A stretch of 51,896 bases of DNA from Polyangia bacterium (GCA_030426845.1 JAUHXR010000019.1:1-51896), one strand, 5' to 3'. Counted from the first letter of the stretch, positions 2,664 through 34,600 are shown. Made by a program: numbers and translations. The notes: generated by a model from the sequence alone, not told the origin.

Positions 2664-3908
2664 ATGAAGCCTGCACTCGCGTCCGCGGTCGGCCTGCTCT
2701 CCCTCGTCCTCGCGGTCGGGTGCGGCGCGAAGACCGGTCTGGACGTGCCCCCGTTCGACGCGGGGGGCATCGACGGCGGCACCGACGCGGGGATCGACAT
2801 CCCCTGCGTCGAGGTCCCCTTCGACGGCGGCATCGTGGAGCTGCCCCTCGACCTCGAGGCGCGCCTCGCGCGGGCGGACGTCCTCTTCCTCGTCGACACG
2901 ACCGCGTCGATGAACGACGAGATCGACCAGATCCGGAGCGGCCTCCGCGACGAGATCGCGCCCGGCATCGCCGCCGCCATCCCGGACTCCGCGCTCGGGG
3001 TGGCGACCTTCGCCGACTTCCCGGAGATCAGCTGCGGCGAGGCGGGCGACGTGCCCTTCCAGCTCGAGCGGCTCATCACCCAGGACCTCAGCCTCGTGCA
3101 GGCCGCGGTCGACAACATCGGGATGGGCAACGGCATCGACCGGCCCGAGAGCCAGGTCGAGGCGCTCTACCAGGTCGCGACGGGCGAGGGCCTCGAGCCG
3201 TACATCAGCCCGTCGAGCGGCTGCCCCTCCGGCGGCCAGGGCTACCCCTGCTTCCGGCTCGACGCGCTCCCCGTGGTGCTGCTGTTCACCGATGCGCCGT
3301 TCCACAATGGCCCCGGCGGGACCAACCCGTACCGCTGCTCGCTCGACGCGACCCCGCACACCTACGAGCAGGCGGTGGCGCGGCTCCAGGCGCTGAACGT
3401 CCGCGTGATGGGCCTCTACTCGGGCGACGGCGACGGACGCGGCGACATCCTCGCGATCGCGCGTGACACCGGGGCGGTCAACGACTCGGGTCCGCTCGTC
3501 TTCGACATCGGGCAGCGCGGCGAGCGCCTCAGCTCGAGCGTGGTCGAGGCGATCGAGACGCTCGCGGACGTGATCCGCTTCGACGTCGACACGGTGCTGA
3601 ACGACCCCGATCCCGGCGACGGCGTCGACCCGCGCGACTTCGTCGAGGCGGTGGTCCCGGTGCGCGCCGAGCCGATGGATCGCATCGAGGGGATCGACCT
3701 CGACAACAACCGCTTCCTCGGCGTGCTCGCGGGGACCCGGGTCTTCTTCCAGCTGCGCATCCGCGGCGGCACGGTGGTGCCCGGCCGCGAGCCGCAGCGC
3801 TTCCTCCTCGAGGTGGTCTTCCGGGGTGACGAGCGCACCCGGCTGGGGAGCCGCCTCGTGGAGATCGTGATCCCGAGCGCCGATGGCGAGGGCTGCGAAG
3901 CCAACTGA
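2664..3908 (+). CDS. VWA-domain lipoprotein (first of tandem pair)
   Basis: A 414-residue predicted lipoprotein. The signal peptide ends in LAVGC with Cys20 as the lipid-attached residue, followed by an acidic Asp-Ala-Gly linker. A von Willebrand A domain starts near residue 72; its metal site is DTTAS (78-82), a variant of the usual DxSxS. The C-terminal 130 residues look like a beta-rich domain. It is a paralogue of the next gene, with the same CGA(K/R)TGLD start after the lipid cysteine. A role at the cell surface is inferred; the ligand is unknown. Confidence 0.8.
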   Translation: MKPALASAVGLLSLVLAVGCGAKTGLDVPPFDAGGIDGGTDAGIDIPCVEVPFDGGIVELPLDLEARLARADVLFLVDTTASMNDEIDQIRSGLRDEIAPGIAAAIPDSALGVATFADFPEISCGEAGDVPFQLERLITQDLSLVQAAVDNIGMGNGIDRPESQVEALYQVATGEGLEPYISPSSGCPSGGQGYPCFRLDALPVVLLFTDAPFHNGPGGTNPYRCSLDATPHTYEQAVARLQALNVRVMGLYSGDGDGRGDILAIARDTGAVNDSGPLVFDIGQRGERLSSSVVEAIETLADVIRFDVDTVLNDPDPGDGVDPRDFVEAVVPVRAEPMDRIEGIDLDNNRFLGVLAGTRVFFQLRIRGGTVVPGREPQRFLLEVVFRGDERTRLGSRLVEIVIPSADGEGCEAN

Positions 3909-5226
3909 CCGCCCGCCCGGGCGAGAGCGGCTCGCCGCGCCGCGCAGGGTCCTCGCGACCCGGCGGATCGCGGCGCGGACGGTCGCGATGTGGGCGCTCG
4001 CCGGTCTCCTCGGCGTGGGGTGCGGCGCCCGGACGGGGCTCGACGCACCCGAGCGCGACGCTGGCGACGACGCGGGCACCGACGCCGGGGTCGACGCCGG
4101 CCCGCCTCCGCGCCCCTGCGTCGAGGCGCCCCGCGAGGTCGGCGAGGTGGTCGCGAGCTTCGAGATCCCGGCCTCCCTCGCGGTCGTCGACCTCATGTTC
4201 CTCATCGACTCGACGGGGAGCATGCGCGACGAGATCGACGCGGTGCGCCAGCGGCTGCGCGAGCGGGTCGTCCCCGGCGTGCGGGCCGCGATCCCGGACG
4301 CGGCCTTCGGCGTAGCGCTCTTCGGCGAGTTCCCGGTGCGCCCCCACGGCCCCGGCGGCGTCGAGCCGTACCGGCTGCGCTCGCCCATCACGAGCGACGT
4401 GACGCGCATCGAGGCGGCCCTCGACGAGACGCCGGTGTGGGGGAACCTCGACGATCCCGAGGCCGCCATCGAGGGCCTGTTCCAGGTGGTGACCGGCGCG
4501 GGCTACGGCCGGCCGGGCGACCCCGGCTTCATCCCCGCGAGCGCGGGCTGCCCGTCCGGCGGCAGCGGGGGCGCGTGCTTCCGCGCGGACGCGCTGCCGA
4601 TCGTGATGCTCATCACCGATGCGCCGATGCACAACGGGCCGGGCGACGCGAACCCCTACCGCTTCCTCCCGCCGCCGCACGGCTACGACGAGACCGTCGC
4701 GCGGGTCGCCAGCCTCGACGCGCTGGTGGTGGGGCTCGCGGCGAGCGACCCCGGGCGGCCTTCGGCCACGCCGCACCTCCGCCAGCTCGCGCTCGACACC
4801 GGCTCGGTCGACGGTGACGGCGCGCCGCTGTTCTTCGACATCGGCGGGCGCGGCGATCGGATCGGCGACGAGATCGTCGGGGCGGTGCAGTTCGTCGCCT
4901 CGGAGGTCCCGCTCGACGTGGACGCCCTCGCGGAGGACCTGCCAGGCGACGCGATCGACGCGTCGGTCGTCCTGCGCGGCGTGCGCGCGCGCAGCGCCGA
5001 GCCGATGAGCAACGTGGATCGCGTCGAGGGAGACACCTTCGTCGGGGTCATCCCCGGCACGGTGCTGACGTTCGAGATCCTCGTCGACGCGAGCGACCTG
5101 CCGCCCTCGCCCGAGCGCCGCGTCTTCCCGGCCCGCGTCCTGTTCCGCGCGTCCGGCCGCAGCCGGATCGACGTCCGCGAGATCGACATCGTCGTCCCCG
5201 GCGACGACGGCCTCGGCTGCGAGTAG
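3883..5226 (+). CDS. VWA-domain lipoprotein (second of tandem pair)
   Basis: A 447-residue paralogue of the preceding protein. From the ATG at 3883 the signal sequence has a long arginine-rich n-region, the lipobox is GVGC with Cys47, then a repeated Asp-Ala-Gly linker and a VWA domain with the canonical metal site DSTGS (109-113). An ATG at 3988 would give only about a dozen residues before the lipid cysteine, so I prefer the longer start, which overlaps the upstream gene by 26 bp. The pair looks like a tandem duplication in one transcript. Confidence 0.75.
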   Translation: MARAAKPTDRPPGRERLAAPRRVLATRRIAARTVAMWALAGLLGVGCGARTGLDAPERDAGDDAGTDAGVDAGPPPRPCVEAPREVGEVVASFEIPASLAVVDLMFLIDSTGSMRDEIDAVRQRLRERVVPGVRAAIPDAAFGVALFGEFPVRPHGPGGVEPYRLRSPITSDVTRIEAALDETPVWGNLDDPEAAIEGLFQVVTGAGYGRPGDPGFIPASAGCPSGGSGGACFRADALPIVMLITDAPMHNGPGDANPYRFLPPPHGYDETVARVASLDALVVGLAASDPGRPSATPHLRQLALDTGSVDGDGAPLFFDIGGRGDRIGDEIVGAVQFVASEVPLDVDALAEDLPGDAIDASVVLRGVRARSAEPMSNVDRVEGDTFVGVIPGTVLTFEILVDASDLPPSPERRVFPARVLFRASGRSRIDVREIDIVVPGDDGLGCE

Positions 5227-7944: not shown

Positions 7945-8145
7945 TCAGGGGCCGCCCTGGCGGCCGTGCAGAGGGCCCTTCTTGGGCGGTGGGGACTGGG
8001 TCGGCTCGGGCTTCGGCGGGGCCGGTGCGCGGGGCGCTGGCGGCCACGGCATCGGCACCTCGATGTGGGGCCCGTCCTCCCGGTACTCCTCGCGGTCTCG
8101 CGGCGGGTTTCGCGGCGGGCGCGGGCCGTTCCCACCGCCGCTCAC
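7945..8145 (-). CDS. Proline-rich small protein
   Basis: A 66-residue, very proline-rich and charged protein with no recognisable domain, starting at a GTG that overlaps the stop codon of the two-TM protein gene. It is the last gene before the left end of the prophage. Its composition suggests a disordered polypeptide. It could be non-coding, but the overlap with the upstream gene favours a real coupled gene. Confidence 0.4.
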   Translation of the reverse strand: MSGGGNGPRPPRNPPRDREEYREDGPHIEVPMPWPPAPRAPAPPKPEPTQSPPPKKGPLHGRQGGP

Positions 8146-8720
8146 GAGGCCACCTGCGCGCTCGCGAATGGGTCAGCTCGAACGAGCTCGGCCTGGATCT
8201 TCGCGATGTACCAGCGAACCTGCGGCACGCCGAGCTCGGCCTCCACGCGTCGGAGCGCGGCCTCGGGCGCCTGGAGCTCCGACAGGGTGCCGAGGTACCG
8301 GCTGTCTTGCACGAGGACCAGCGCGTCGTCCCAGAAGCTGCACCGCACTGCCCACGCTTCCTCGAGCGCGGCGGCCTTCTCGACGCGGCCTACAAGGCCG
8401 GTCACCTGGAGGGCGACCGCGGTGATCGCAACGACGAGGGTGCTCGCTGCCACGAAGTCGCGCCCGCCGTAGCTGCTCGCGACGGAGGCGAACGCGCTGC
8501 CCGAGCCAACGATGACCACGGCCTGGAGCAACGCGGAGAGCCAGCCCATGAGCCGCCGGAGCCGCGAGAAGTAGCGCGCGTGGAGGTGCGCGCTGAGTCG
8601 CGCGGCCCAGATGGCCTGGTAGTAGCTCTGCCACGCCTCGCGGCCCATCTCGCGATCGACGGCAACCACGGTCGGCGCCTGGGGCTGCACGAGGACCATC
8701 GGTTCGCGCTTCTTCGACAT
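8142..8720 (-). CDS. Two-TM protein, SLATT-like architecture
   Basis: A 192-residue protein with a soluble N-terminus, two adjacent transmembrane helices (about residues 57-80 and 89-110) and a helical C-terminal half. Size and layout resemble SLATT-domain proteins, two-TM effectors found with SMODS/SLOG defence systems, but this is resemblance only and no partner sensor gene is adjacent. It lies after the tail genes at the left end of the prophage, where temperate phages often carry accessory genes. Alternatives are superinfection exclusion or a lysis role. Confidence 0.5.
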   Translation of the reverse strand: MSKKREPMVLVQPQAPTVVAVDREMGREAWQSYYQAIWAARLSAHLHARYFSRLRRLMGWLSALLQAVVIVGSGSAFASVASSYGGRDFVAASTLVVAITAVALQVTGLVGRVEKAAALEEAWAVRCSFWDDALVLVQDSRYLGTLSELQAPEAALRRVEAELGVPQVRWYIAKIQAELVRADPFASAQVAS

Positions 8721-8751
8721 GCCCAGAGTCTAGCAGGCCGCGTTGACGCGC

Positions 8752-10473
8752 CTACCCGATCCTCGGCGCGAAGCGCGACGACGTCGTCGCCCCGACGGCG
8801 GGCCAGGGCGCCTCGCCGAGAAGGTCGCAGTGGAGCCCGAAGCGCGCCGACCAGAGATGCTCGCAGCCCACGAACGCCCGCATGTCCGCGACGGCCGCGC
8901 AGAGCGCGTTGTGGGCCTGCATGGCCGCGTCCGAGAGGCTCACCGAGTCCGAGCTCGCGAGACCCAAGATCGTGCAGTCGGCCGCGGGGGCATCGCCGCC
9001 GGTCGAGGCCCCGAGGACCGCCGCGTTGGCCGGGGCGGCACGCGCGGCGGCCTGCGGAGCCGATGCGGCCTGGTTGACGACAAGTCGCTGCTGCGCCCCA
9101 TCCCAGCTCGCGGTGATGACGTAGGTGAGCCCCTGCACCATCACGGGACCCTTGAGGTCGTAGGTTGCGGCGCCGTTACGAAGCCGGAACACAGCTTGCC
9201 CCGATCCGTCGATGCGGAGGGCCCAGCCGCCGCCAGCGTCCTCGTGCTCGACGAGCGTGCAGGTCGCCGGGGCCCCGTCGATACGCACCATGACGGACCT
9301 CGTCATCGTGTCCGAGCCGATGAGCGGCGCCGCCGATGCCTGTACGTAGTAGGTCTCCGGCGTGAACCCGAGCTCACCCTCGGCGTTGGGCTGGAAGACC
9401 TCGATCGTGCCGACGTCGAGCTTCGGCGAGCCACTGTTAACGGTGACCTCCGCGCTGATGCGCAGCATCTCGAACACGCCGCCGGGCAGGCCGTCGACGG
9501 CGTCCAGGTCCTCGGCCGCGACCGTCGGACGAAGCAGAATGGTGGTCCACGACGACGAGAGCACCGACGCGGTGAGCGCGGAGCCGCCCTCGTCGGTGTC
9601 GACGTACAGGAAGGCCTTGTTGGCGCCGTCGCCGACGTCGTCGAAGCGCGCCTCGATCGCGACTACGACCTCGCCCGACGTCAGGTCGCCAGGCGCCCCG
9701 ATCGGCGCCTGGAGCGGGATCCCGAAGGGGAACAGTTCCGTCTTCGGGAAGCTCGAGGACACGTCGAGCACGATCGGGTGCTCGCGAGTGAGCGCGCGGA
9801 AGTAGCACTGCCGTCGCGCGTCCGCGTAGAGCACCGCATCGACGGCGCCGCGCGCCGACAGGTGACGCACGTCGAAGACCGGGGAGTTCGCTTCGCACGA
9901 GGCTGGCAGGACGGCCCGATCGGCGACGCCCAGAGCGAGCACCGAACGCGGCAGCTCCATGACCTGCACGAGGTCCACGTAGAGACCCACGATGTTGGCT
10001 TGCGCCGTAACGACGAGCTCGATCTCGCCGCCGCGCGCCGCGAGGTCGAAGCTCTGGAGGTCGAACGCGCGGAGGAGGTTGACGCGGCCGAGTGCGGCGT
10101 TCGCAACATTCACCAGGTCGATGCGCCAGCTACCGAAGGTCGTCGTGCCGTCGCTCGCCTCGAGATCGATGACACCGCCGAGCGTGGAGACGTCGGGCTC
10201 GCGGTGCCCGGTCACGAGGAGGGCGAACGCGAAGGCGCCCTCGCGCCACCACCCGCCGGACTCGGTCGTCAGCCGCGTGTCGAAGATCGTGGTCGGCGCC
10301 CCGGTTGGGATCTCGAGGCCGACGTGCGACGAGGGGCCAGGGCAGCCGCCGCGTGACTGAATCCAGTTGGCCAACGCGGCCGCGCCGCCCCACTCCTCGG
10401 CGCCAACGACGCGGGACGTGCGCACTCGATCGGGGACGCGTGAGCGCGCCTCGGGAGCCAACACATCAACCAC
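8752..10473 (-). CDS. Tail tip / receptor-binding candidate
   Basis: A 573-residue, beta-rich protein, the most distal large gene of the tail module. The C-terminal half (about residues 350-470) has strands resembling concanavalin-A-like/LamG folds, such as the YVITASWDGAQQRLVVN stretch, followed by an Ala-rich part and a Cys-containing tail. It starts at a GTG overlapping the previous gene's stop by 8 bp. Position and composition suggest a host-range protein; no database family is claimed. Confidence 0.55.
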   Translation of the reverse strand: MVDVLAPEARSRVPDRVRTSRVVGAEEWGGAAALANWIQSRGGCPGPSSHVGLEIPTGAPTTIFDTRLTTESGGWWREGAFAFALLVTGHREPDVSTLGGVIDLEASDGTTTFGSWRIDLVNVANAALGRVNLLRAFDLQSFDLAARGGEIELVVTAQANIVGLYVDLVQVMELPRSVLALGVADRAVLPASCEANSPVFDVRHLSARGAVDAVLYADARRQCYFRALTREHPIVLDVSSSFPKTELFPFGIPLQAPIGAPGDLTSGEVVVAIEARFDDVGDGANKAFLYVDTDEGGSALTASVLSSSWTTILLRPTVAAEDLDAVDGLPGGVFEMLRISAEVTVNSGSPKLDVGTIEVFQPNAEGELGFTPETYYVQASAAPLIGSDTMTRSVMVRIDGAPATCTLVEHEDAGGGWALRIDGSGQAVFRLRNGAATYDLKGPVMVQGLTYVITASWDGAQQRLVVNQAASAPQAAARAAPANAAVLGASTGGDAPAADCTILGLASSDSVSLSDAAMQAHNALCAAVADMRAFVGCEHLWSARFGLHCDLLGEAPWPAVGATTSSRFAPRIG

Positions 10474-11233
10474 CCTGCACCCCCACGAAGCCCTGCACGT
10501 GCAGCGCGCGCAGGAGAGGAAATAGCGCGGGCTCGCCGGGCCCCGCCGGGCCGAGGTTGGACGACGCCGCGACGCCGACCCCGACGCGCAGGACCCGCGT
10601 CGGGGCGGCGCTCGCGCCCGCGGGCGCGTTGGGGACAGAGAGCTCGGTCGTGGGCCACGCCGAGTCCGGGTCGAGGACCAGCTTGTTGGCGTAGGCGCCC
10701 GCGCCCCGCGTCGCCCCCGTCACCCGAGCGCCCACGTACCCAACGGACGCCGAGGTGAACTCCGACTGCCAGACGTGGTCCACCGGGCGCTCGTGCTCGA
10801 GCTCGGGATCGCCGTCCCACGGGTAGAGGAACACGCGGACGACGACGTCAGCCGCCGGGGGAGGCGCGAGGAGCTCGCCGCTCGCCACGCCCCACGCGGT
10901 CCAGAGCCGGAACTCGTAGCGCTCACCCGAACCGAAGACGGGCACGTCGATCACGCCGAACGGGGACGGCTCGAGCATGTACCAACCGCCGGCCGGCGTG
11001 CGGGCGACGAGCTCGTGGCGGGCAGTCGCCCATCGTCGAGGGTCGCCGGTGACCGTGAGCGCCTCATTGACCGGCTGCCAGCTCACGCGGACCTGCGCGA
11101 AGGAGTCGGCCTTGTGCAGGACGCCGTTGACCAAGCCGTCGCGGACGCGCTGAGCGCAGAGCGGGTCGTTCGCGCGGCGGTACAGGCTCGGCTCGAGCCG
11201 CACAAGTCCCCCAAGCGGGCTACGCGCGGTCAT
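10466..11233 (-). CDS. Distal tail protein, unassigned
   Basis: A 255-residue protein between the hub-like and receptor-binding-like proteins. It is rich in beta-strand-prone and Trp/Tyr segments and has a Gly/Ala/Pro-rich C-terminal third. I use the ATG at 11233; a TTG two codons upstream is also in frame. Its position in the tail operon suggests a tip or fibre-associated component. No motif was recognised. A plus-strand lipoprotein gene starts 36 bp from its start codon, in the opposite direction. Confidence 0.6.
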   Translation of the reverse strand: MTARSPLGGLVRLEPSLYRRANDPLCAQRVRDGLVNGVLHKADSFAQVRVSWQPVNEALTVTGDPRRWATARHELVARTPAGGWYMLEPSPFGVIDVPVFGSGERYEFRLWTAWGVASGELLAPPPAADVVVRVFLYPWDGDPELEHERPVDHVWQSEFTSASVGYVGARVTGATRGAGAYANKLVLDPDSAWPTTELSVPNAPAGASAAPTRVLRVGVGVAASSNLGPAGPGEPALFPLLRALHVQGFVGVQGG

Positions 11234-11268
11234 GTGCAAGCCGCCTTTCTGGGGCTATGTTGGTCGAC

Positions 11269-11619
11269 ATGAGGGCGACGGTGACCGCGATCGTGATGGG
11301 GCTGCTGGCGAGCGCGTGCGTGGCCGCGCCCGAGCCGATGTGCCCCGACCTGAGTCGGTGCTGGGAGTGCTTCGAGAACCGGCCCGACCAGACACCGCCG
11401 GACGACCCGGGGATCCCGCTGTGCTCGAGCTGTCAGGTCCCGCGGGGCGAGTGCCCCGAAGGTTGGGAGGCCGCCTGCGACATCGGCACGCCTGAGGAGC
11501 CGCAGTTCTGGGTGCCCTACTGCGTAGACGACGTTCTGCGCTGCGCGCGCCAGACCGGGCGCGAGCGGACCTACTTCGACGACCGCGTGCCGTTCTGCCG
11601 ACAGCGTCGGGCCGAGTAG
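11269..11619 (+). CDS. Cys-rich lipoprotein, antisense moron
   Basis: A 116-residue protein with a short signal peptide ending LLASAC (probable lipid cysteine), then about 95 residues with many cysteines in CxxC-like spacing (such as CWEC and CSSC). Its strand is opposite to the late operon around it and it fills exactly the 406-bp gap between the hub gene (ends 11640) and the next tail gene (starts 11233), so it needs its own promoter. This is the profile of a moron expressed from the prophage. The opposite-strand frame through the gap is Arg/His-rich and looks spurious. Confidence 0.65.
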   Translation: MRATVTAIVMGLLASACVAAPEPMCPDLSRCWECFENRPDQTPPDDPGIPLCSSCQVPRGECPEGWEAACDIGTPEEPQFWVPYCVDDVLRCARQTGRERTYFDDRVPFCRQRRAE

Positions 11620-11639
11620 CCGTATGTGCTGCTCGAGTT

Positions 11640-14423
11640 TCATGGTGCGAACACCAGCCGCGGAACAGGTCCGTCGGCGAACTCGATCTGACTCGATCGG
11701 TTGGCCTCATAAGCGAACTCGGCGAGGTTCTGGGCAGCCGAGTACTCCGTCGCCTTGCGGGCTCCCCAGGCCCACGTGAAGCCCGCGTGGGCCCAGGCTT
11801 GTTCGGTGGTGAAGGAGAGCTGGGTCGCCGCGACCGCGGTCACCGTAGCCGCGTGGAGGTCCGCGACCTTGTGGCCCCATCGGTAGACCTCGATCTCGTC
11901 GCCGACCTCCAAGAAGTCGGTCAGGTCGGTACCCGCCGGGAAGTAGCTCGCGAGGTCCACGTCCACCGTGAAGGGACCCGTTGTGCCCGAGGCGCCCGCG
12001 ATCGCCTCGCACTTCGCTCCGGGGGCGTAGCCGCCGTAGCGCACCCGCGAGAGCAACAACGTCAGCGTGCCGTAGCCGCGGTCGGGCTCCCATGACCGAC
12101 CGACCACGCGCGTGACGACCGAGGCCCCGGAGCCGCCCGCGCTGTTCGGCAGCTTCGACCAAGTCACGCCGACGACGTGGCCAGCGATCGCGTCGAAGAG
12201 CTCGAAGAGGACCTGGACGGTGAGGATGGCGTAGCGCTCGCCGAACGTCGCGAGGATGCGGTGGGCGCCTGCGATGCGCTGCCCGTCGTGCTCGGGCCGG
12301 CGCGGCGGATCGACGCTCTTCGGCTTCACCTCGAGCGTCCGGCCGCCGGGCACCCGCGAGAAACCGCGCTGCCAGCGGAAGTTCCACGGGCTGTTGCCGT
12401 GCTCGTCCTCGAGCGGGTCGTACTCGGTGAGGTGCAGGACGTGGTTGAAGATGCCGACCTGCGCCGGGTCGTACTGAAACCAGAACCCGTCGGTGACCAG
12501 CTGGTCGACGTCGACCGTCGCGTCGAGGAGCTCGACCGCGGACGGCGGACGCACGGCGCGGAAGCTGATGCGGCCCTCGAGGGAGAAGTGCGGGTAGCAG
12601 CCGAGGAGGCGGAGGTCCTGCTCGATGATCTCGCCGAGATCGAGCGTCTTGCCTGCGACGAAGGTGCGCTCGCGCAAGAGCGAGGACCCTGCGGCCGTCT
12701 CGCGCAGCTCTGCATCCCAGCCGGGCTCGAAGTCGTCGGGGCGCAGGTCGGGGGCGAGGCCGAGGTTCAGGAACTCGGCGCGATCGTCGAGGAGCTGCTG
12801 GATGAAGTCCGCGAGGCTGCCGCGCCGGACGTACTCGCGCATCACGCGGAAGGTCGGGGCGTTCTCGGCCGTGGCGACGACCAGGGCGGGCGCGCCCTCC
12901 TTGACGACGCGCGGAGCGCCGTCCGGCGCGAGGACCCCGCCGACCTCGCCCACCACGCTCGCGAGCCCCGAGAGCTCGCGGCTGACGTGGCGGGCCTGGG
13001 GCGTGGGATCGAGCTCGGGCCACTCCATCTGGAGCGCCGTCCGCCCCGCGATCATGACGGCCGGCGCGTTCAGCACGAGGCGGTTGTACTGGAGGGCGTA
13101 GCCCGTCCAGCCGGGCTTGAAGTTGGCCGCGTCGAAGATCCCGCTCGTGCTCTCGTACGTGTAGCGCGCGCCTGGGGCCGCGGGAGAGCGCTCGAAACCG
13201 AAGACGTAGCCGAGGCGCGGGAAGGTGCCGCCGCCGCCCGGCGCGAGCGGCCCGAGCGAGCCATCAGGCTGCCGGTAAAGGTTCGCGTACTCCCCGGTCG
13301 CGAGGACCTGATTCGTCGGCCGCTCGCCGCCGAGCTCGATGATGCTCGCGTCGTCCGGCGAGGCGCCGTCGATCACCGAGTCGACGCGCATCTCGATCCA
13401 CTTCGCTGAGGCGGCGGGGGCCTGGTAGACCAGCCCCCACGAGGCGCCGCGGGACTCCGCGCGTACGCCGCCCGTCGTCACCACGGACCAGCCCGCCCAG
13501 CTCGAGCTCTCGAGGTCGAGGAGGTGGTTGATCGCGGCCAGGAACTCGGCGCGGTTGTCGAACAGCCCGATGAGCTCGAAGCGCAGCTCGCTGAGGGGCG
13601 TGTCGGCAGCCTGCGGCTTCGAGCTCGTGTCGTACTCGCGCACCTCGATCCGAAGCCGCGTGGCCGGGCTGTAGTAGGCGCCGCGGAGCCCGAACTCGTC
13701 CGTGAGATCGGAGGCGAGATCGAACGCCCAGAGCCGACGGAGCGAGTCGACGGTCCAGGACCAGTGCTCACCATCCGTCGTCGGCTCGGTCGAACAGATG
13801 CCGGCCCAGACGCGCGTGCCGTCGCCCTGCAGGTCGTCGCCGGGCGCGTAGACGTACGCGTAGACGCGGCGACCCTCGAAGACGACCGGCCGATCGGTGA
13901 TCTCCGGCACGCTGAGGCGGTCGTCGGAGAGGATCGTGCTCGAACGGTAGTGGTACTGCGCAGCCTCGTTGTTGATCGACCAGAGCCCGCGCGTCAGCCC
14001 GCCGAAGCTCACGTCGTCGCGAGCCGAGTAGTGCATCGTCTCGGTGCCCATGTAGAGGACGCCCGAGGCCGGGAACGCCTCGGCGCCGGTCACCTCGATC
14101 GTGAGCTCGACGTCCGAAACGACGTCCTCGTTGAGGTAGGTGATCGCGGTCGGGTCCGCGTGGAACACCGGCAGTCCGACCTCATGGAGCACGCGGAGCT
14201 TGAAGCCGCTCGGCTCCCACTTCGCGAGGATCAGATCGATCGTCTCCGCGAACTTGAGGCCGTCCGTGAAGACGCCCGCGACACGGCGGACGTCGGTCGC
14301 GGTCGCGGGCTCGCGCTCCATCTCCTCGAGAGAGACGAACTGCGTTTGGATCCCGTCGAAGACGAAGCGCCAGGCGAGTGCGCCCGTCGCCGTCTCTTTC
14401 ACTCTGTCCCACGCGGCCGTCAT
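11640..14423 (-). CDS. Central tail hub / baseplate-like protein
   Basis: A 927-residue protein, the largest tail component after the tape measure in order. The size, the place directly after the distal tail protein and the beta-rich sequence with a mid-protein segment (about residues 480-640) resembling tail-associated hub proteins suggest the hub of a siphovirus-like tail tip. The ATG overlaps the previous gene's TGA (ATGA). No lytic domain was recognised in it. Function is inferred from synteny. Confidence 0.6.
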   Translation of the reverse strand: MTAAWDRVKETATGALAWRFVFDGIQTQFVSLEEMEREPATATDVRRVAGVFTDGLKFAETIDLILAKWEPSGFKLRVLHEVGLPVFHADPTAITYLNEDVVSDVELTIEVTGAEAFPASGVLYMGTETMHYSARDDVSFGGLTRGLWSINNEAAQYHYRSSTILSDDRLSVPEITDRPVVFEGRRVYAYVYAPGDDLQGDGTRVWAGICSTEPTTDGEHWSWTVDSLRRLWAFDLASDLTDEFGLRGAYYSPATRLRIEVREYDTSSKPQAADTPLSELRFELIGLFDNRAEFLAAINHLLDLESSSWAGWSVVTTGGVRAESRGASWGLVYQAPAASAKWIEMRVDSVIDGASPDDASIIELGGERPTNQVLATGEYANLYRQPDGSLGPLAPGGGGTFPRLGYVFGFERSPAAPGARYTYESTSGIFDAANFKPGWTGYALQYNRLVLNAPAVMIAGRTALQMEWPELDPTPQARHVSRELSGLASVVGEVGGVLAPDGAPRVVKEGAPALVVATAENAPTFRVMREYVRRGSLADFIQQLLDDRAEFLNLGLAPDLRPDDFEPGWDAELRETAAGSSLLRERTFVAGKTLDLGEIIEQDLRLLGCYPHFSLEGRISFRAVRPPSAVELLDATVDVDQLVTDGFWFQYDPAQVGIFNHVLHLTEYDPLEDEHGNSPWNFRWQRGFSRVPGGRTLEVKPKSVDPPRRPEHDGQRIAGAHRILATFGERYAILTVQVLFELFDAIAGHVVGVTWSKLPNSAGGSGASVVTRVVGRSWEPDRGYGTLTLLLSRVRYGGYAPGAKCEAIAGASGTTGPFTVDVDLASYFPAGTDLTDFLEVGDEIEVYRWGHKVADLHAATVTAVAATQLSFTTEQAWAHAGFTWAWGARKATEYSAAQNLAEFAYEANRSSQIEFADGPVPRLVFAP

Positions 14424-15832
14424 GGCATCTCGTAGAGGCCGCCGGGCGGATGCCACGTCACCGAGCCGGTGGCCGCGGAGGAGCCTGCCCCGAACGAGGT
14501 GCCGGCCGCGGGGATGAAACGCACCGTGAGGGATCCGGCCGTGCTCACGGTCAGCGCGATCGTCACCCGCCACCAGCCTGAGTTGCTGGGATGCGTTGCG
14601 GCGGTCGCCGACAGCGCGGCGAGCCCGCTTTGCGAACGGATCGTCGTGGCGCCCGTCTGGGTGTTGAGCTGGATGAACGCGTAGGCGCTCCCCCGGACGA
14701 CATGCAGCTCCGGGAAGCGAGACGTGATCGCGTCCTTCTTGACCGCGATCCGGACCTCGTACGGGGTCGCCGTGACGAGCGGCCACCCGGCAAAGACCCC
14801 GGTGTAGTACTCGGTCGCGATCGCGCTGTCGTCCGTGCTGAGCTCGGCCGCCGTGCCCCCGAACGGATCGGCCTGACCGCCGACGCTAGACGGACTGCTC
14901 GTCGGGGTCCACGAGGCGAGCACTGGAAGCGTGTCGCGCAGGGTTCCAGGATCGGCCGGCGGCTCCTCGACCGGGAGGACACGAGCGAGCAAGCGCGTCC
15001 GGTACTCGAGGGAGTACATCGGATAGTCGTCGGCGCCCGTGAACGTCGGCGAGAACACGAGCCCATCCGCGCGCATCTCGACCACCTCGGGAAGGCTGCT
15101 CGGATGGTCGTCGTCGACGCGGATCACGCACTTGTACGAGATCGCGTGATCCCACGCGTGCTGGTAGCTCCACGGGATCTGTTCCGTCGCCCGATACGCG
15201 TGCACCGGCGTGCCCGGCTCGTCGAAGGCGACCTCGCCGATCGAGCCGTCGTCCTCGCCCGCCTGAATCCAGTCCTTGTTGACCGCGCTGCGGAAGCGCG
15301 AGATCTGCCCGTAGAGCCCTCCGTCGGCCGGGGCGTCCGCGCTCACCCCCGCGTCGTAGCGGTCGGCCTTGACGCCCGTGCGGGCCATCGCGCCAGGCAG
15401 GATCACGAAGTACGGGCGCGCCGTAGAGGCGTGCGAGGCGGCGTCGAGCTCGGCTGCCGAGGAGAGGCCGAGGATCCGAGCGAGCCGCGGGCCGCCTGCG
15501 CCGACCGTGGCGTCGCGGAAGTCGAGCTGCACCGAGCCGTTGTCGTAGGCGATCGTGTACCAGGCGGGCGTCGTCGGATCGTAGGTGACCGTGTAGGCGC
15601 CCAGCCCGGCCGTGCGATCGTTGAGCTCGTCCTCGAGGACCGTCGCAAGGACCTCGAGCGACGCGATCCGCTTCGGCGTCGCGCCGCGGTGATCGACGGC
15701 GGACGCGACCGCGCGATGCACGAGCTCCCTGTCGGCCGCGATCGAGAGATCGAATGTGCCTCCGTCATCGGTCACCCGAACAGCGAGGGTGCCGAGTCGG
15801 ACGAGGTCGAAGCTGTACTCGAGGACCTCCAT
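14420..15832 (-). CDS. Distal tail (Dit-like) protein
   Basis: A 470-residue beta-rich protein immediately after the tape-measure gene, with which it shares an ATGA start-stop overlap. In siphoviruses this position encodes the distal tail protein joining tube to hub, sometimes with an extra carbohydrate-binding domain; the C-terminal 190 residues here (from about 280) may be such a jelly-roll-like extension. No diagnostic motif was seen, so the call rests on position and composition. Confidence 0.5.
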   Translation of the reverse strand: MEVLEYSFDLVRLGTLAVRVTDDGGTFDLSIAADRELVHRAVASAVDHRGATPKRIASLEVLATVLEDELNDRTAGLGAYTVTYDPTTPAWYTIAYDNGSVQLDFRDATVGAGGPRLARILGLSSAAELDAASHASTARPYFVILPGAMARTGVKADRYDAGVSADAPADGGLYGQISRFRSAVNKDWIQAGEDDGSIGEVAFDEPGTPVHAYRATEQIPWSYQHAWDHAISYKCVIRVDDDHPSSLPEVVEMRADGLVFSPTFTGADDYPMYSLEYRTRLLARVLPVEEPPADPGTLRDTLPVLASWTPTSSPSSVGGQADPFGGTAAELSTDDSAIATEYYTGVFAGWPLVTATPYEVRIAVKKDAITSRFPELHVVRGSAYAFIQLNTQTGATTIRSQSGLAALSATAATHPSNSGWWRVTIALTVSTAGSLTVRFIPAAGTSFGAGSSAATGSVTWHPPGGLYEMP

Positions 15833-17988
15833 CAGGCCGCGCGTCCCCAGCGACGCTGCTCGCTCTCGAGTCCGCGGCGGAACTCGCGGCCGAGCTCGGC
15901 GTAGGTCGCCGCGGTGACCATCGGTCCGCCGAACGTGATGTTGTAGGTGTCGCCACCGCCCCCGCCGCCGTTGTCGTTGCTGGGCTGCGGGCTCGCCGGA
16001 GACGATGCCTCGCCAGTGCCGGCCGCGCTCGACGCGCCCGCGCTCCCGGCCGCCAGACCGGCCGCGCCGCCGAAGGCCAGCGCAGCGACCGCGGTGTATG
16101 CGACGCCAGCGGCCGCGTGGGCCGCGGCACCCGCGTAGTTCATCGACGCCGCGTCGCCGACCGCCTTGGCGAACTCGAAGACCGCGAGCACCGTCGCCTG
16201 AGTGCCGATTGACCAGAGCGTGTCCTCGAGCATCCCCGCGAGGGCCTCGCCGAACGACTGCTCGCCCTTGAGGGCGGCCTTGGCGGCGCCCGCGAAGGCG
16301 TTCGCTACACCGCCGAGGAGAGAGTTCCCCATCTGCGCGGCCACGGCCTTGACGGCCATCCCCGCGGCCTCCATCGCGGAGACCTGCGCGGCGCCCGCGG
16401 CGCGGGCCGCCTCGTTCGCTTCGTTGAGGGCCTCGACGACACCATCGACCCCGCGGCGCCAGGAGTCGTGGAAGGCGGCCGCCGTCTCGGCCGCCGTGCG
16501 CGCGAGCTCCTTCTGGCGATCGATGAACTCCTGTTGCTTCTCGTTCGCCTCGTTGAAGGCGCGCGAGCGTGCGTCCAGGCCGGCATCCCACTGACCGAGC
16601 GCATGGCGGGCCGAGGAGACCGCGGCGGTCATCGCCCGATCCATCTTCGCGGCGACACGGGCGGCCGCCTCGGCGCCCTCCTGGGCCGCGAGCATGTCGG
16701 CGATCCGCTCCTCCGGCGATCGAAGGTCCGTCGAACCGCTGGAGCTCGAGCCGGCCGAGGGCACACGCGGCGGCCCTGTGGGCGCCGGCAACGCGCCGCT
16801 GCCGCCCCGAGGCCCCTCGGCCACCGCCGTACGAAGGTTGCGACTCAGCGTGTTCGAGAAGATGTCGCGAAGGCTCTCTGTCCCGCGAATGGACTGCGCC
16901 TGCTCACGCGTCCGCTGAAGCGCGGCGGCGAAGTCGAAGGTCCCGCTCGTGACCTCGCGCCACCCCTCGCCGATCAGCCGGAAGAAGCCGCGCCACCCTT
17001 CGATGGCGCGCCCGATGGCCACCGTGATCGTCTCGATTCCCGCGAGAGCTGCCGCCGTGAACCCGACGAAGATATCCTCGGTGGTGGAGGTCACGTCGCG
17101 CCAGGCGAGCGTCGCCTCGGACGATCCTGTGATGGCGCGCGCGAGATCGTCGAAGGCTGGGCCCATTTGCCGCGTGATGACGTCGGCGGCGCGCTGACTC
17201 TGGAGGTAGGCGTCTTCGAGGGCCACTCGAAAGCGCTGCACCGCGCCGCCCGCAGTATCGGCACCCGTCTCCATCTCGGCCGCCCGCTCGCGCAGCTGGG
17301 CCATTGCGGCGGAGAACTGCTGCGAACGGCTCGAGCTCGCGTCGACCTCGATCCCGAAGCGGCGCAAGGACTCCGCCGACAGCGACACGAGGCCCTCGCC
17401 GAGCTGCTCCATGGCCTGAGCGGCATCGCCACCGACCGCGGCCGCGTAGTCGGTCGCCACCTCGGCGACGCTCGCGAACTGCTCGTCGGTCAACTCGAGG
17501 CCGGACTGCATAAGCCGGTTGCGCGAGATCGCGAGATCCATCCGCGAGACCATGCCGCCGACCGCCGCCTGCGCCGCGTCCACCGAGCCCTGCATGCGAT
17601 TGAAGACGCCAACGCCGCGCTCCGTGGCGTTCGCAAAGATCGCGGCGGAGGAGGCGGCCGTGCCCAACGCGACCCCCGTGAGACGGGAGGCGGTCGCCAG
17701 CCCCTGCATGTCGATCTGGAAGCGCCGCGCCGCGCCGCCCCCCTTCTTGGCCTCATCCGCGAGCCCATCAGCAGCGTCCGCTGCGGCCCCGACAGCATCG
17801 CCGTACCCCTCGAGCGCGCCAACACCCTCGGCGAAGGCGAGCGCATCGGCGCGCGCGTCGACCATGGCCAACGCGAGCTCGTTGGCCTCGGCCTTGGCCT
17901 CCTCGAGCGCAGCAACGAAGGCGCGGACCTCCGCCTCGCCGTCGCCCCATCGCTCGGCAACGAGAACAACGCGCACCGGATCAGCCAT
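15832..17988 (-). CDS. Tail tape-measure protein
   Basis: A 718-residue, alanine-rich, mostly helical protein with coiled-coil stretches (around residues 20-75, 435-530) and a hydrophobic Gly/Ala segment near 590-660, the usual features of phage tape measures. It follows the tail chaperone frames, as expected for a tail-length determinant, and overlaps the upstream frame by 8 bp. The modest length suggests a fairly short non-contractile tail. Confidence 0.85.
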   Translation of the reverse strand: MADPVRVVLVAERWGDGEAEVRAFVAALEEAKAEANELALAMVDARADALAFAEGVGALEGYGDAVGAAADAADGLADEAKKGGGAARRFQIDMQGLATASRLTGVALGTAASSAAIFANATERGVGVFNRMQGSVDAAQAAVGGMVSRMDLAISRNRLMQSGLELTDEQFASVAEVATDYAAAVGGDAAQAMEQLGEGLVSLSAESLRRFGIEVDASSSRSQQFSAAMAQLRERAAEMETGADTAGGAVQRFRVALEDAYLQSQRAADVITRQMGPAFDDLARAITGSSEATLAWRDVTSTTEDIFVGFTAAALAGIETITVAIGRAIEGWRGFFRLIGEGWREVTSGTFDFAAALQRTREQAQSIRGTESLRDIFSNTLSRNLRTAVAEGPRGGSGALPAPTGPPRVPSAGSSSSGSTDLRSPEERIADMLAAQEGAEAAARVAAKMDRAMTAAVSSARHALGQWDAGLDARSRAFNEANEKQQEFIDRQKELARTAAETAAAFHDSWRRGVDGVVEALNEANEAARAAGAAQVSAMEAAGMAVKAVAAQMGNSLLGGVANAFAGAAKAALKGEQSFGEALAGMLEDTLWSIGTQATVLAVFEFAKAVGDAASMNYAGAAAHAAAGVAYTAVAALAFGGAAGLAAGSAGASSAAGTGEASSPASPQPSNDNGGGGGGDTYNITFGGPMVTAATYAELGREFRRGLESEQRRWGRAA

Positions 17989-18535
17989 GCCGTCGCCGCC
18001 TCCCCGGCCGGCGCTTCATGCTCACGAACCCGCCCGGACGTGACGCCGGACCTGAGCCACCGCCCGGCGGACCGTTCTTGGACTTGAGCCAGCGCTGCAC
18101 GAACCGATCACCGGCGGCGCGCGCGATCCGGAAGGTACGGAGCGCGTCGGTCACGAGCACCGGGGGATCATCCCCGAGGGTCGCCATGATGTAGTGCCCG
18201 TCGGCGTCGACCGAGAGCTCGAGCGCGTGCCTCACGAGCGGCGAGTAGAAGGAGCGCCAAGGACACGTCGGCGGGCGATGGCCGGTCACCGACGCGATCC
18301 TCTCGGCGTGACGCTCCACGGTGGCGGCCGGCGTACCGCCGACGCGGCTCCCCTTGCGGTGACTGCGGCCGTCGCAGTCGCAGCCCCACGCGGCCCGCAG
18401 GACCGCGAGAGCGCGAGGCCCCGCGTTGCCGCGCGACCCCTGCTGCTCCGGCGACAGTCGGCCCATCACGAGCCCGGCGGCGTCTCGTCGCCCTTCCTCT
18501 GCGCCGCACGCGGGGACGATCTCGGGATGTTCCAT
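17981..18535 (-). CDS. Tail assembly chaperone, downstream (T-like) frame
   Basis: This frame overlaps the end of the preceding chaperone gene and is offset by -1 from it. The part after an ATG at 18535 is 184 residues, but the frame is open upstream to the slippery heptamer at 18580-18586. A -1 shift there would fuse the first 147 residues of the upstream protein to 199 residues of this frame (346 in total), as in lambda G-GT. The sequence contains the CPWRSFYSPLVRHALELS stretch and a basic C-terminus, and ends inside the tape-measure start. Independent initiation cannot be excluded. Confidence 0.65.
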   Translation of the reverse strand: MEHPEIVPACGAEEGRRDAAGLVMGRLSPEQQGSRGNAGPRALAVLRAAWGCDCDGRSHRKGSRVGGTPAATVERHAERIASVTGHRPPTCPWRSFYSPLVRHALELSVDADGHYIMATLGDDPPVLVTDALRTFRIARAAGDRFVQRWLKSKNGPPGGGSGPASRPGGFVSMKRRPGRRRRHG

Positions 18536-19020
18536 GCAAGCTGAGAGGAAGCCGGCACTACACAGGAGGCCGGCCTGCCTTTTCCCACGACGGAGAGCGC
18601 CTCGATCGCGCTCCCGATGTCGAACACGTCGCGGTCGCCGAACCCGAGCTCCTCGAGCTCGTCCAGCGCGTCGTCATCGAGCATCTCGCCCGGGCTGTCG
18701 CGGCGCGCCTTCCATGTCGGCGGACTGACGGGCTGACCGTGCTCGTCGACGATGTCGCGGATCTCGGCGACGCCCATCCGGAACGCCATGCGCCAGCGCT
18801 GCCGATCGGTGCCGAGCAGGTCGAGCCGCTCCCGCTGCGAGCGCCTCAGCGCGCGGCAGACGAACAGTGTCGGCTTCGCCTCCCGCGGCAGGCCGGCCTC
18901 GTGGAGGAGGCCGACGTCGCGGAACATCGAATAGGGCACCGCGGCCTCGGGCCGGAGGTGCTTGCGGATCACCGGATCGAAGGAGCGGTAGATCTCGAGT
19001 TGGGCGGGGTTCTTCGTCAT
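18466..19020 (-). CDS. Tail assembly chaperone (G-like)
   Basis: A 184-residue acidic protein between the tail tube and tape-measure genes, the standard position of siphovirus tail chaperones. I use the ATG at 19020 rather than the longer open frame, which runs antisense-like through the tube gene. Codons 146-147 contain the slippery heptamer GGGAAAA; ribosomes that do not slip finish at the TGA at 18466. Family assignment is by position and by the frameshift arrangement. Confidence 0.65.
   Translation of the reverse strand: MTKNPAQLEIYRSFDPVIRKHLRPEAAVPYSMFRDVGLLHEAGLPREAKPTLFVCRALRRSQRERLDLLGTDRQRWRMAFRMGVAEIRDIVDEHGQPVSPPTWKARRDSPGEMLDDDALDELEELGFGDRDVFDIGSAIEALSVVGKGRPASCVVPASSQLAWNIPRSSPRAAQRKGDETPPGS
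18580..18586 (-). other. Programmed -1 frameshift site GGGAAAA
   Basis: On the minus strand the heptamer G-GGA-AAA is in the correct reading phase (X XXY YYZ) in the chaperone gene. Five bases downstream GCCGGC pairs with a second GCCGGC across a 12-nt loop, a plausible stimulatory hairpin. The -1 frame is open from here to the end of the downstream chaperone frame. Confidence 0.7.
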
Positions 19021-19055
19021 GCGGGGACCTCTTGGGGCTGGGGCCGAGCGGACGC

Positions 19056-20324
19056 TCAGCGGAAGATGTGGATGCGGAAGCACGACACCGCGAGATCGGT
19101 GTCGGCGCTCAGCGCGACGACCGTGTCGGTGTCGTTGCGGCCCTCCCATTCGACCGTCTCGACGCCGACGCCCTCGTTCTCGCCGGGCGGGCTCGCGAGG
19201 TACTGGACCTTCGAGGCGGTGAGCAGCACGGCGCCGGAGAGCGTCGTCGTCCCGAACGCGTACGCGAGGTACATGTCGTCGCGGTTGTCGCGGCGCTTCT
19301 GCCGCGTGAGGTCCTCGTAAAACGAGGGCATGAACGAGCCCTGGATCGTCGGCGTGTCGGCGCGGACCCGCATCCAGTGCCGCAGCCCCTCCTCGGCCGA
19401 CGGATCGGTGATGGCCCGGTTCTCGAGGTTCAGCGTGAAGCCGACCTGCTTGACGGGCGTCGCGACGAGGGCCGTCGTGCCCACCTGCTGCTCGATGAAC
19501 TCGCCCACGTGATCGGGGATGGGCGAGTAGTTGACGTAGGCCTCGGACTCGAACGCGAGAAGCGAGAGATCCGACGCGGCGTCCTCGCCGTAGTCCCATG
19601 CCCGACCTTCGAACGTGAAGGTGAGCATCGGCTCGGACTCGCCCGTGAGCGACAACTCGATCTGTACCGTCCCGAACCCGCCGCGGAAGACGTACCGGTC
19701 GTCTTCCTCCTCGCCGATCACGAGGAACTGCGCGAAGGCGCGAGGGTTGCGCGTGAGGAACAGGGTGACGCCGCCGTAGACGACGTCGGTCGCCTGGGGC
19801 GCGCTCGGAAGCGCGACCTTGAGCGTGACGACCGAGCCGACCACGGACTTGATCTCGCGGACGTAGAAGCGGTTGGCGAGGACGAAGCCGATGGCCATCC
19901 CCGCCTTGAGCCCCGCGACGCTCGTGAGCTCGCCCGAGGTGCCATCGGCCCATGTGGTGGCGACGGTCGTGCCCGTGCCGAGCTCGACGCCGCCGAGGAC
20001 GTTCTTGAGGAGCTTCGCGCAGGGCCCCGCGACCGCGGCGACCCCGTCGCCCGCCAGCGTCTCGCCGGGCGCGAGCGGGGTCCGGAACGTCAGCGACCAC
20101 GCCTTGTGGCCCTCGATCTTCTCGCGGTGATCGTGGATGTGATGGACGCCTTGGCCGGGGTCGATGAAGACCTTCCCCGGGTCGTGGTCGATCGAACCTT
20201 CGAGGTGAGGGATGAGGGTGAAGTCGCCGAGCGTGCCCGTGTGATCGAGCGCGAACGAGGCGCGGTCCGGCTCCTCGTAGAAGAAGAGCTTCTGGATGTT
20301 CTTGCTGACGGGTCCGGCGGTCAT
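19056..20324 (-). CDS. Major tail (tube) protein
   Basis: A 422-residue, strongly beta-strand-prone protein upstream of the tail chaperone genes, the usual place of the major tail tube subunit. It is longer than minimal tube proteins (about 200-250), so it may carry an inserted or added domain. The ATG at 20324 is near the end of the preceding tail gene. No sheath gene lies next to it, supporting a non-contractile tail. Identification is by synteny and composition. Confidence 0.65.
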   Translation of the reverse strand: MTAGPVSKNIQKLFFYEEPDRASFALDHTGTLGDFTLIPHLEGSIDHDPGKVFIDPGQGVHHIHDHREKIEGHKAWSLTFRTPLAPGETLAGDGVAAVAGPCAKLLKNVLGGVELGTGTTVATTWADGTSGELTSVAGLKAGMAIGFVLANRFYVREIKSVVGSVVTLKVALPSAPQATDVVYGGVTLFLTRNPRAFAQFLVIGEEEDDRYVFRGGFGTVQIELSLTGESEPMLTFTFEGRAWDYGEDAASDLSLLAFESEAYVNYSPIPDHVGEFIEQQVGTTALVATPVKQVGFTLNLENRAITDPSAEEGLRHWMRVRADTPTIQGSFMPSFYEDLTRQKRRDNRDDMYLAYAFGTTTLSGAVLLTASKVQYLASPPGENEGVGVETVEWEGRNDTDTVVALSADTDLAVSCFRIHIFR

Positions 20325-20333
20325 CGCTGCCTC

Positions 20334-20885
20334 TCAGGAGATGGGGGTGTCGATGACGATGAAGCCGCGGAAGCGGTGGATCGTCTCGATGAGCTGGGGG
20401 AAGCCGGCACCCTTCGGGCCGCTGCGCACCTTGCCGTCGCTGCTCACGTGAACGAGCGACCGGCATCCGGTCAACTCACCCGCGTTCGTGCGCTCGAGGT
20501 TGGGCGGCCACTCGATGGCCTGCGCCAGGAGCTCACCATCCTCGGTCGCGAAACCGTGCTCGTCGTAGCGCGCGTCGTCGCTCTTGATCGCGTCGAGGGG
20601 CAGGCCACGGACAACGCGGACATCGACCTCGATGGAGCGGACCTGCTTCGAGCCGGTCGGCGGATGTCGCCGGCCGCGGAGTCGGACCGAGCCGATCTCC
20701 ACGCGCGGCTGCCCGGCATCGTGCTGCTCGCTCGGGAGCGTGCGGCGCAGCTCGTCGGCCAGCGGCAGCCCCTCAGGGAGCTCCTCGGCGAAGCGGCCCA
20801 CCTGGATCGTCCGCATGTCGCCCGCGGCCTGGGTGGCGAGCTCACGGAGCCGCTCGACGAGCCGGCGGTACTCGGGCGCGGACAT
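20334..20885 (-). CDS. Tail completion / terminator candidate
   Basis: A 183-residue protein between the gp10-like gene and the tail tube gene, a position usually held by neck or tail-terminator proteins. It has a mixed alpha/beta pattern and no recognised motif. The ATG abuts the preceding gene's stop. Function is inferred from position only. Confidence 0.5.
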   Translation of the reverse strand: MSAPEYRRLVERLRELATQAAGDMRTIQVGRFAEELPEGLPLADELRRTLPSEQHDAGQPRVEIGSVRLRGRRHPPTGSKQVRSIEVDVRVVRGLPLDAIKSDDARYDEHGFATEDGELLAQAIEWPPNLERTNAGELTGCRSLVHVSSDGKVRSGPKGAGFPQLIETIHRFRGFIVIDTPIS

Positions 20886-21206
20886 CTACCGGCCCTCCAG
20901 GACGTACAGCTCGCACAGGTCGCGGACCTCGGTCGCCAGCGGCTCGGCGAGCTCTCCGCTCGCGACCGGGACGAAGGGCTTGCGGGCGTGGACGTGGGCC
21001 GCGTAGGGGGCGGCCGCGCCGAACTCCGCGCCCTCAGCGTAGACGCTCTCGAGCAGCTCGCCCGTTCCCACGAGGCCCTGCGCCTCGATGCTTGCGCGCG
21101 TCGCCTCCGCGCCGAGCTCGGCCACGCGCTCGAGGACGAGGGCCGGCTGCGCCATCCGATCGGCGATGCCCTCGATCTGGGTGATGGCCTCGTCGAAGCC
21201 AGCCAC
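20886..21206 (-). CDS. HK97 gp10-like head-tail/tail completion protein
   Basis: A 106-residue protein whose central part (GTGELLESVYAEG, then AAPYAAHVHARKPF) resembles HK97 gp10-like and virion-morphogenesis proteins, in which a similar tyrosine/histidine segment follows a conserved glycine-serine turn. The start is a GTG with GGGGAGGA upstream. It begins the tail-completion part of the operon. Confidence 0.6.
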   Translation of the reverse strand: MAGFDEAITQIEGIADRMAQPALVLERVAELGAEATRASIEAQGLVGTGELLESVYAEGAEFGAAAPYAAHVHARKPFVPVASGELAEPLATEVRDLCELYVLEGR

Positions 21207-21208
21207 GA

Positions 21209-21565
21209 TCAGTCCTCCCCGCGGGCCGGCAAATTTGCCGGTCGGGTCGCGCTGGCCCCAGTACCCTCGATGACATGGCCATCGAAGACGAAGTCTGCGC
21301 CCTGATTGAATGCCCGGAGTGCGGCGAGGAAGCGGAGCTCTCGGTCGCCCGGATCAACCGCGAGCGTCAGCACACGTGCGTCGCCTGTGGCGTCGTCGTC
21401 CACTTTCCGGGTGGGGCGGGAAGCCTCGAGGACCTCGTCGACCAGATCCGCTACAAGCGCCGCACCGGGCGTGCGCGGTAGGCGATCGAGCTCCGCGCAC
21501 AACTCCTTCGCGAAGGACTCGAAGGCGTCGCATCGGAAGCGCACCTCGTGCCGCGCGCCCATCAC
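21209..21565 (-). CDS. Hypothetical late protein antisense to zinc-ribbon frame
   Basis: A 118-residue frame between the DUF1320 gene, whose stop it overlaps, and the gp10-like gene, which starts 3 bp after its stop. These tight junctions favour a real gene of the late operon. Against it, the plus strand of the same DNA encodes a convincing zinc-ribbon protein (21275-21481). GC at third codon positions is high on both strands, so codon use does not decide. No motif was recognised. Confidence 0.45.
   Translation of the reverse strand: MMGARHEVRFRCDAFESFAKELCAELDRLPRTPGAALVADLVDEVLEASRPTRKVDDDATGDARVLTLAVDPGDRELRFLAALRAFNQGADFVFDGHVIEGTGASATRPANLPARGED
21226..21241. promoter_or_regulatory. AT-cored palindrome, copy 1
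   Basis: CCGGCAAATTTGCCGG is a perfect 16-bp palindrome, 33 bp upstream of the plus-strand zinc-ribbon start. An 18-bp stretch around it (CGGCAAATTTGCCGGTCG, 21227-21244) recurs exactly at 26247-26264 inside the ParB-methyltransferase gene. It may be a protein-binding site; on the minus strand it is also coding in the overlapping frame. Confidence 0.4.
21275..21481 (+). CDS. Zinc-ribbon protein, antisense moron candidate
   Basis: A 68-residue protein with two CxxC knuckles (CPECG near residue 14 and CVACG near 36) about 18 residues apart, then a short amphipathic helix: a classic small zinc ribbon. It is on the plus strand inside the leftward late operon and overlaps a minus-strand frame. 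The palindrome at 21226-21241 lies in its presumed promoter. Small zinc-finger proteins such as Mu Com act in phage post-transcriptional control, but no homology to Com is claimed. Confidence 0.5.
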   Translation: MAIEDEVCALIECPECGEEAELSVARINRERQHTCVACGVVVHFPGGAGSLEDLVDQIRYKRRTGRAR

Positions 21566-21960: not shown

Positions 21961-22118
21961 GGCGGTGCTCGTGTGGGTGCCGGTCTCTCCCGGCCGTCAC
22001 GACGCCCGACTCTCGCCGGGTCTGAGCGCGCCCCGCCCCGGTCGCGCTCGCGGATGTCGTTGCCGCTCCCCGGTATCCCTCACAGCTACTGGGGGTCCTG
22101 CGTTGACCTCGACCGCGA

Positions 22119-23069: not shown

Positions 23070-23168
23070 GGTCCTCTTGCTCCTGGGGGCCCCGAATCGG
23101 GCTCTTCTACGACCCCAGCCCCGTCGGCCGAACCGTACGGGGCAAGGGTCACTGCGGCGTGCTCAGCG

Positions 23169-23537: not shown

Positions 23538-23538
23538 C

Positions 23539-29037: not shown

Positions 29038-29089
29038 AACGAGGCCGGCGACGCCCAAACGCCGCCGGCCTCCGAGAAAGGACCGAGAC

Positions 29090-34518: not shown

Positions 34519-34531
34519 GCCAGCGCCGACT

Positions 34532-34549: not shown

Positions 34550-34600
34550 TCCCGAGCGATCCGAGCCAATCAACCTGCCCCGGTGGTCGATGCGCCGACG

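Follow-up and report, generated by a model that had tools for sequence, protein, structure and literature searches.

Llp of phage T5 is an outer-membrane lipoprotein which acts from the periplasmic side to block FhuA, the receptor of T5 (PMC9586334). The cognate Llp of phage BF23 lacks homology to that of T5 and corresponds to the receptor of BF23, BtuB (PMC4728585). Similarly, Cor inactivates the phage receptor FhuA (PMC9586334, PMC11436027), and Llp and Cor each hold an intramolecular disulphide (PMC9586334). Ltp of the Streptococcus thermophilus phage TP-J34 is reported to be a superinfection-exclusion lipoprotein which is expressed by the prophage (PMC3952083). Receptor-blocking lipoproteins are known from a few coliphages.

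In the current work, a Mu-like prophage was found to contain a lipoprotein gene that is almost certainly phage-borne and was inserted, on the antisense strand, where two genes of the tail operon formerly shared a start-stop overlap. In related prophages, the junctions flanking the corresponding hub gene are repeatedly occupied by other antisense lipoprotein genes. The stretch of DNA that was analyzed (named “the window”; 51,896 nucleotides) is contig C531 of a 9.4-Mb draft genome, the close relatives of which include a 10.3-Mb complete genome of the same family. The host of the prophage belongs to a family labelled Sandaracinaceae-like in view of its genome size and GC and of known biology, and we take it to be a myxobacterium. 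The assignment to Mu-like transposable phages is based on Pfam matches to DDE_2 (8e-58), Phage-MuB_C (6e-16), Portal_Mu (7e-91) and Phage_Mu_Gp27 (7e-40), and the positions of the relevant features are collected in Table 1. The head and tail genes of the window are arranged in two divergent arms, 8142-24636 (-) and 25958-41656 (+), with the portal at the far right and the protease through to the tail genes on the left. The portal and hub genes are located on one strand, ~12 kb apart, in C413 and G140, and the portal is on the strand opposite to the hub in G145; the divergent arms of the window represent a rearrangement or a misassembly. A tandem pair of host lipoprotein-like paralogues (2664-3908 and 3988-5226, both +), carrying GCGAKTGLD and GCGARTGLD, is present beside the prophage.

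Table 1 Features of the prophage and of the hub region in the window (positions counted from the first nucleotide of the window).
Feature	Position	Strand	Basis
Mu-like prophage	8142-41656 (ends approximate; about 8.1-41.7 kb)	.	Pfam, PHROGs, gene calls
Distal tail protein with LamG/ConA-like lectin domain, candidate receptor-binding protein	8752..10425	-	Pfam Laminin_G_3, E 1.8e-7
Next tail gene, 255 aa	10466..11233	-	Alignment; homologous to the relatives' hub-overlapping gene
ATGA at start of next tail gene, also stop of 137-aa ORF	11230..11233	-	Sequence, alignment with relatives
137-aa ORF opposite the lipoprotein	11230..11643	-	Regarded as a shadow frame instead of a gene
Cys-rich lipoprotein gene, antisense to tail operon	11257..11619	+	GC3, lipobox scan, codon-position GC
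Signal peptide MRATVTAIVMGLLASA	11269..11316	+	Sequence
ATGA at hub stop	11640..11643	-	Remnant of ancestral start-stop overlap
Tail/baseplate hub gene, 927 aa	11640..14423	-	AlphaFold2, Foldseek, structural matches
Tail gene directly upstream of hub	14420..15832	-	ATGA-joined to hub in the window
Capsid (major head protein)	22119-23069		Pfam/PHROGs
Protease	23539-24636		Pfam/PHROGs
MuA	27157-29037		Pfam/PHROGs
MuB	29177-30034		Pfam/PHROGs
Gp27	35233-35772		Pfam/PHROGs
Terminase	36889-38394		Pfam/PHROGs
Portal (Mu)	39489-40757		Pfam/PHROGs

The hub gene and the next tail gene are separated by a gap of 406 bp, which is occupied by the plus-strand ORF. The GC content of this ORF depends on codon position (0.66/0.55/0.92, GC3 0.917; p = 1.6e-8) in a manner resembling that of the neighbouring genes (0.70-0.75/0.50-0.55/0.89-0.90), and the plus frame is judged to be coding because of its third-position GC of 0.92. 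Translation is likely to start at ATG 11257, preceded by GGGG, or at ATG 11269, yielding a product of 116-120 aa, the sequence of which begins with MRATVTAIVMGLLASAC. This product has the organization of a small lipoprotein: the signal peptide MRATVTAIVMGLLASA is followed by the Cys residue to be acylated (codon 11317-11319; lipobox ASAC, in which the Ala at position -3 is permitted, though another residue is commonest) and by a mature part of 100 residues, within which all 11 Cys residues are located. Residue +2 is Val, being, as a hint from sequence only, neither the Asp (E. coli) nor the Lys (Myxococcus) associated with inner-membrane retention, the latter occupying this position in the majority of M. 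xanthus lipoproteins of the inner membrane (PMC3222651). A scan of the whole window for ORFs combining a lipobox with GC3 returned four, i.e. this gene and three located in the host flanks.

The lipoprotein is without match in Pfam, in PHROGs and among 50,697 phage records, these searches revealing no similarity in sequence to Llp, Cor or other known families, and its AlphaFold model (pLDDT 52) is too poor for structural comparison. Neither the lipoprotein nor the hub of the window, when used as a lone query, retrieved any sequence from IMG/VR or GTDB; the loci of the relatives were obtained with alignment queries instead of single-sequence queries. No sigma-70 promoter or intrinsic terminator was recognized near the gene by a consensus scan, the E. 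coli consensus of which may not fit a myxobacterium of 72% GC, and the divergent starts of the lipoprotein gene and the next tail gene are only 23-35 bp apart.

By its fold, the gene adjoining the insert encodes a tail hub. An AlphaFold2 model based on 13 hub sequences (pLDDT 70.9) matches the T5 tail tip (Foldseek E 4.4e-9), as well as the JBD30 baseplate and lambda J, and gives Z scores of 13-15 against Mu gp44, T4 gp27 and T5 pb3 (14.1 for Mu gp44, 1wru; 14.0 for T5, 7zqp), while a hub profile compared to the sequences of solved structures gave no believable match. The gene with the LamG-like lectin domain is situated two genes on from the hub. Considering the modelled fold of the hub together with this nearby lectin-domain gene, the insert is located in the adsorption module.

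In relatives without an insert at this position the two tail genes are joined. Their overlap is ATGA in L040, L053, L054, L057, L058 and, later, L109, it is GTGA in L030 and L056, and hub stop and next start overlap by one base (TGATG) in L031 and L112. Furthermore, the N-terminus of the next gene product is MTARSPLGG in the window and MTARSPRGG in L056, where the corresponding start codon overlaps the hub stop. The joined junctions of the relatives and the matching start of the next gene therefore indicate that the insert split an ancestral overlap, with each gene keeping its half, the two ATGA copies being the natural result. An earlier note on this DNA had described a Cys-rich lipoprotein gene filling the gap between two otherwise abutting tail genes, with ATGA at both gap edges, and had predicted relatives in which these genes are joined by ATGA; each of these points is borne out by the above results. 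Its proposal that the start-stop junction was duplicated on insertion holds to the extent that the ancestral overlap was split and both ATGA copies survive; a particular duplication mechanism is not shown, since ATGA at both edges is expected from any insertion leaving both genes whole and implies no specific mechanism. A four-base transposon target duplication, which was also considered, is needless, since each edge inherited its ATGA from the overlap and no such duplication is seen with the inserts in L031, L039, L055 and L110. The designation of the gene as a moron is appropriate in that it was added between two genes which are joined in relatives; a promoter and terminator of its own are unsupported by the above consensus scan. 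The 3' ends of the inserts are very tight, being TGA|TCA in L039, TAG|CTA in L110 and CTAG in L031.

Hub homologues were collected from contigs C413 and C93 of the window genome, from two family members, from IMG/VR contigs and, later, from other families of the order. An antisense lipoprotein gene is located at most one gene from the hub in each of the six Sandaracinaceae hub loci (the window, L030, L031, L039, L040 and L041): at the hub 3' end in L039 and L041, at the hub 5' end in L031 and L040, and after the next gene in L030. The lipoprotein genes of this family occupy three different junctions and belong to at least three sequence groups. The junction of the hub with the upstream tail gene holds such a gene not only in L031 and L040 but also in the viral contig L055, in which the lipoprotein is homologous to that of L031 (z 12.9; 34% protein identity). 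The lipoproteins of L039 and L041 are likewise clearly related (z 4.3), and that of the window shows a suggestive match to those of L030 and L055 (z about 2.4). A single homologous lipoprotein family at every site is unsupported, the L031/L055 and L039/L041 pairs being the only ones clearly related. It is this repeated occurrence of non-homologous lipoproteins around the hub that goes beyond the original finding.

Across ten loci with packed operons, all but two of the sense-strand gaps of >330 bp near the hub contain a lipoprotein gene, the two being a gap in L039, which probably represents a missed short tail gene, and a 1.4-kb gap at the prophage edge of the window, which contains a host gene. 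A wider search of the order, performed after the pattern had been noted, added five loci as a held-out check. Among these, L110 (G440, another family) carries a Cys-rich antisense lipoprotein gene at exactly the hub-next junction that is occupied in the window, and L113 carries an antisense lipoprotein gene ~3.4 kb downstream; L109, as well as L060 obtained earlier, has no antisense lipoprotein gene nearby, and such a gene near the hub is also absent from four of the six distinct IMG/VR hub loci.

Three further genes were observed at these loci. A second antisense lipoprotein-like gene with a weaker signal (start at 12536) is present two genes past the hub in L040 (12003-12590, -), and a small ORF with one TM segment in L055 (5334-5582, -) overlaps the end of the antisense lipoprotein gene by one base, forming a two-gene antisense cassette. 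In a prophage of another family, the hub 5' junction is occupied by an antisense gene (L111:1303-1902, +) for a 199-aa exported protein with a non-canonical VTC motif, which is a non-lipoprotein variant of the antisense pattern.

By analogy with T5 Llp, the lipoprotein may be expressed by the prophage and act at the cell envelope to block the receptor of its own tail, a reading to which we assign an even chance. Since its transcription runs counter to that of the late operon, the gene would be expressed mainly while the late genes are silent, i.e. during lysogeny or early infection. Following export and acylation, the product would move to the outer membrane and, stabilized by disulphides, would there bind and block the receptor used by the tail tip or lectin-like fibre of the phage itself, thereby excluding superinfecting phages of the same kind and sparing new virions from binding to debris. 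The position adjacent to the hub would allow the guard to travel with its matching adsorption module, and differences in receptor would account for the unrelated lipoproteins found at one position. More tentatively, and with less than even confidence, we propose that Mu-like phages of myxobacteria have a dedicated and swappable slot for a guard, in which receptor-matched antisense lipoprotein genes enter the overlaps flanking the hub, so that recognition and blocking would be swapped together as a single module.

Lysogenic conversion without receptor blocking, for which lambda bor is a precedent, is possible though rather doubtful. Here, host-derived surface lipoproteins would provide another benefit, such as resistance to stress or predation or altered surface properties, with compact convergent insertions in the tail operon being harmless. 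The lipoproteins found at the site are mutually unrelated, as this explanation would have it, and by the same rule as applied above 51 of 344 genes (15%) from a related complete host genome are predicted to encode lipoproteins; myxobacterial genomes being rich in such genes, an acquired gene will often be one. In favour of the receptor-guard reading, six lipoproteins in 10 antisense genes, counted by independent groups, correspond to p = 0.001 given the 15% background. Eight of 11 antisense cassettes are located at the two hub junctions (~2 in the 12 junctions examined; p about 6e-5, assuming 12 junctions per locus), which argues against conversion alone, both p values being rough because the loci were fetched around the hub, biasing the junction figure upward, and because some are related. 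A profile of the Cys-rich group retrieved its three prophage copies and otherwise no significant match in ten family genomes (best other 0.005, one weak E-value match), a result which also counts against this explanation.

A decaying or neutral insertion of a host gene, devoid of function, would agree with the lack of a recognized promoter in the consensus scan, but is improbable in view of the intact reading frame and strong codon bias, the recurrence of the pattern in six related hub loci and in a further family, and the L031 and L055 proteins, which have remained 34% identical. Also improbable is a virion or late-function gene that is antisense by chance, for example one encoding a tail-associated lipoprotein: the association with tail genes is constant, and L056 has a sense-strand Cys-rich lipoprotein gene three genes past the hub, yet transcription in the antisense direction would run into that of the late genes, an antisense lipoprotein gene is absent from several relatives, and the lipoproteins of related virions are non-homologous.

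It is highly improbable that the genuine operon gene is the 137-aa ORF on the minus strand, with the lipoprotein ORF being accidental: although the 137-aa ORF begins and terminates precisely at the two ATGA overlaps, with a similar bridge from TGATG to ATGA in L040, its codon-position GC (0.86/0.54/0.66) is unlike that of the neighbouring genes and of the antisense-frame type, in-register antisense frames are stop-free in 94% of 360-nt coding stretches of a related host genome, relatives have no gene there, and L031 and L055 conserve the lipoprotein frame alone (z 13.2, compared to 0.9 for the best operon-strand frame). The ORF, the span of which is exactly the 11230-11643 given in the earlier note, thus needs no separate explanation, and conservation of the minus-strand frame, which that note named as evidence against its reading, was not seen between L031 and L055. 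These form the one homologous pair suited to this strand-conservation test, the window gene being without a sufficiently close relative; an operon-strand frame pair between the window and L031 (z 5.0) is not the 137-aa frame and contains stops, and was discarded as a composition artefact. In the window (11230-11643, -) and in L040 (7278-7619, +), an operon-strand ORF spans the antisense gene from the residual upstream start to the downstream overlapping stop. Such bridge ORFs might serve to retain ribosomes on the late mRNA, but they are accounted for as shadow frames.

If true, the receptor-guard reading would turn the recurrent antisense slot around the hub into a simple signature by which such genes could be located in the genomes of phages with unknown receptors, and it would lead to a pairwise prediction, i.e. 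that each lipoprotein excludes only phages sharing its hub or fibre specificity. As unrelated surface-protein genes are present at the hubs of related viruses, the placement of a “door guard” beside the part that finds the door may be a standard arrangement.

Of the systems described above, Ltp of TP-J34 is from a phage of a Gram-positive host, unlike the window prophage. The lambda morons bor and lom encode envelope proteins made by prophages and are located among late genes; bor is located near the lysis genes, whereas lom follows the tip gene J. Lom is an outer-membrane protein, the gene of which, unlike that of the window lipoprotein, is in the sense orientation. We know of no indication that either blocks the lambda receptor. 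Like the window gene, cor of N15, phi80 and T1 encodes a small lipoprotein and is located in the tail-tip region of a temperate phage; unlike the window gene, N15 cor shares the strand of the tail genes, being situated three genes past the tip fibre, and there is no sequence match between the two. T5 is virulent and its llp has an annotated promoter, whereas the window gene belongs to a Mu-like prophage, and llp is at an operon edge, whereas the window gene neighbours the hub gene inside the operon. No sequence similarity was found between T5 Llp and the window lipoprotein, the Llp proteins of T5 and BF23 being themselves non-homologous. As with the window gene and its tail hub neighbour, however, T5 llp is a small lipoprotein gene on the strand opposite to its neighbour, the receptor-binding gene oad (pb5), and directly beside it. 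The opposite strand, the tail-tip neighbours, the unrelated lipoproteins in related phages and the Cys-rich mature part would together fit the logic of the T5/BF23 Llp system.
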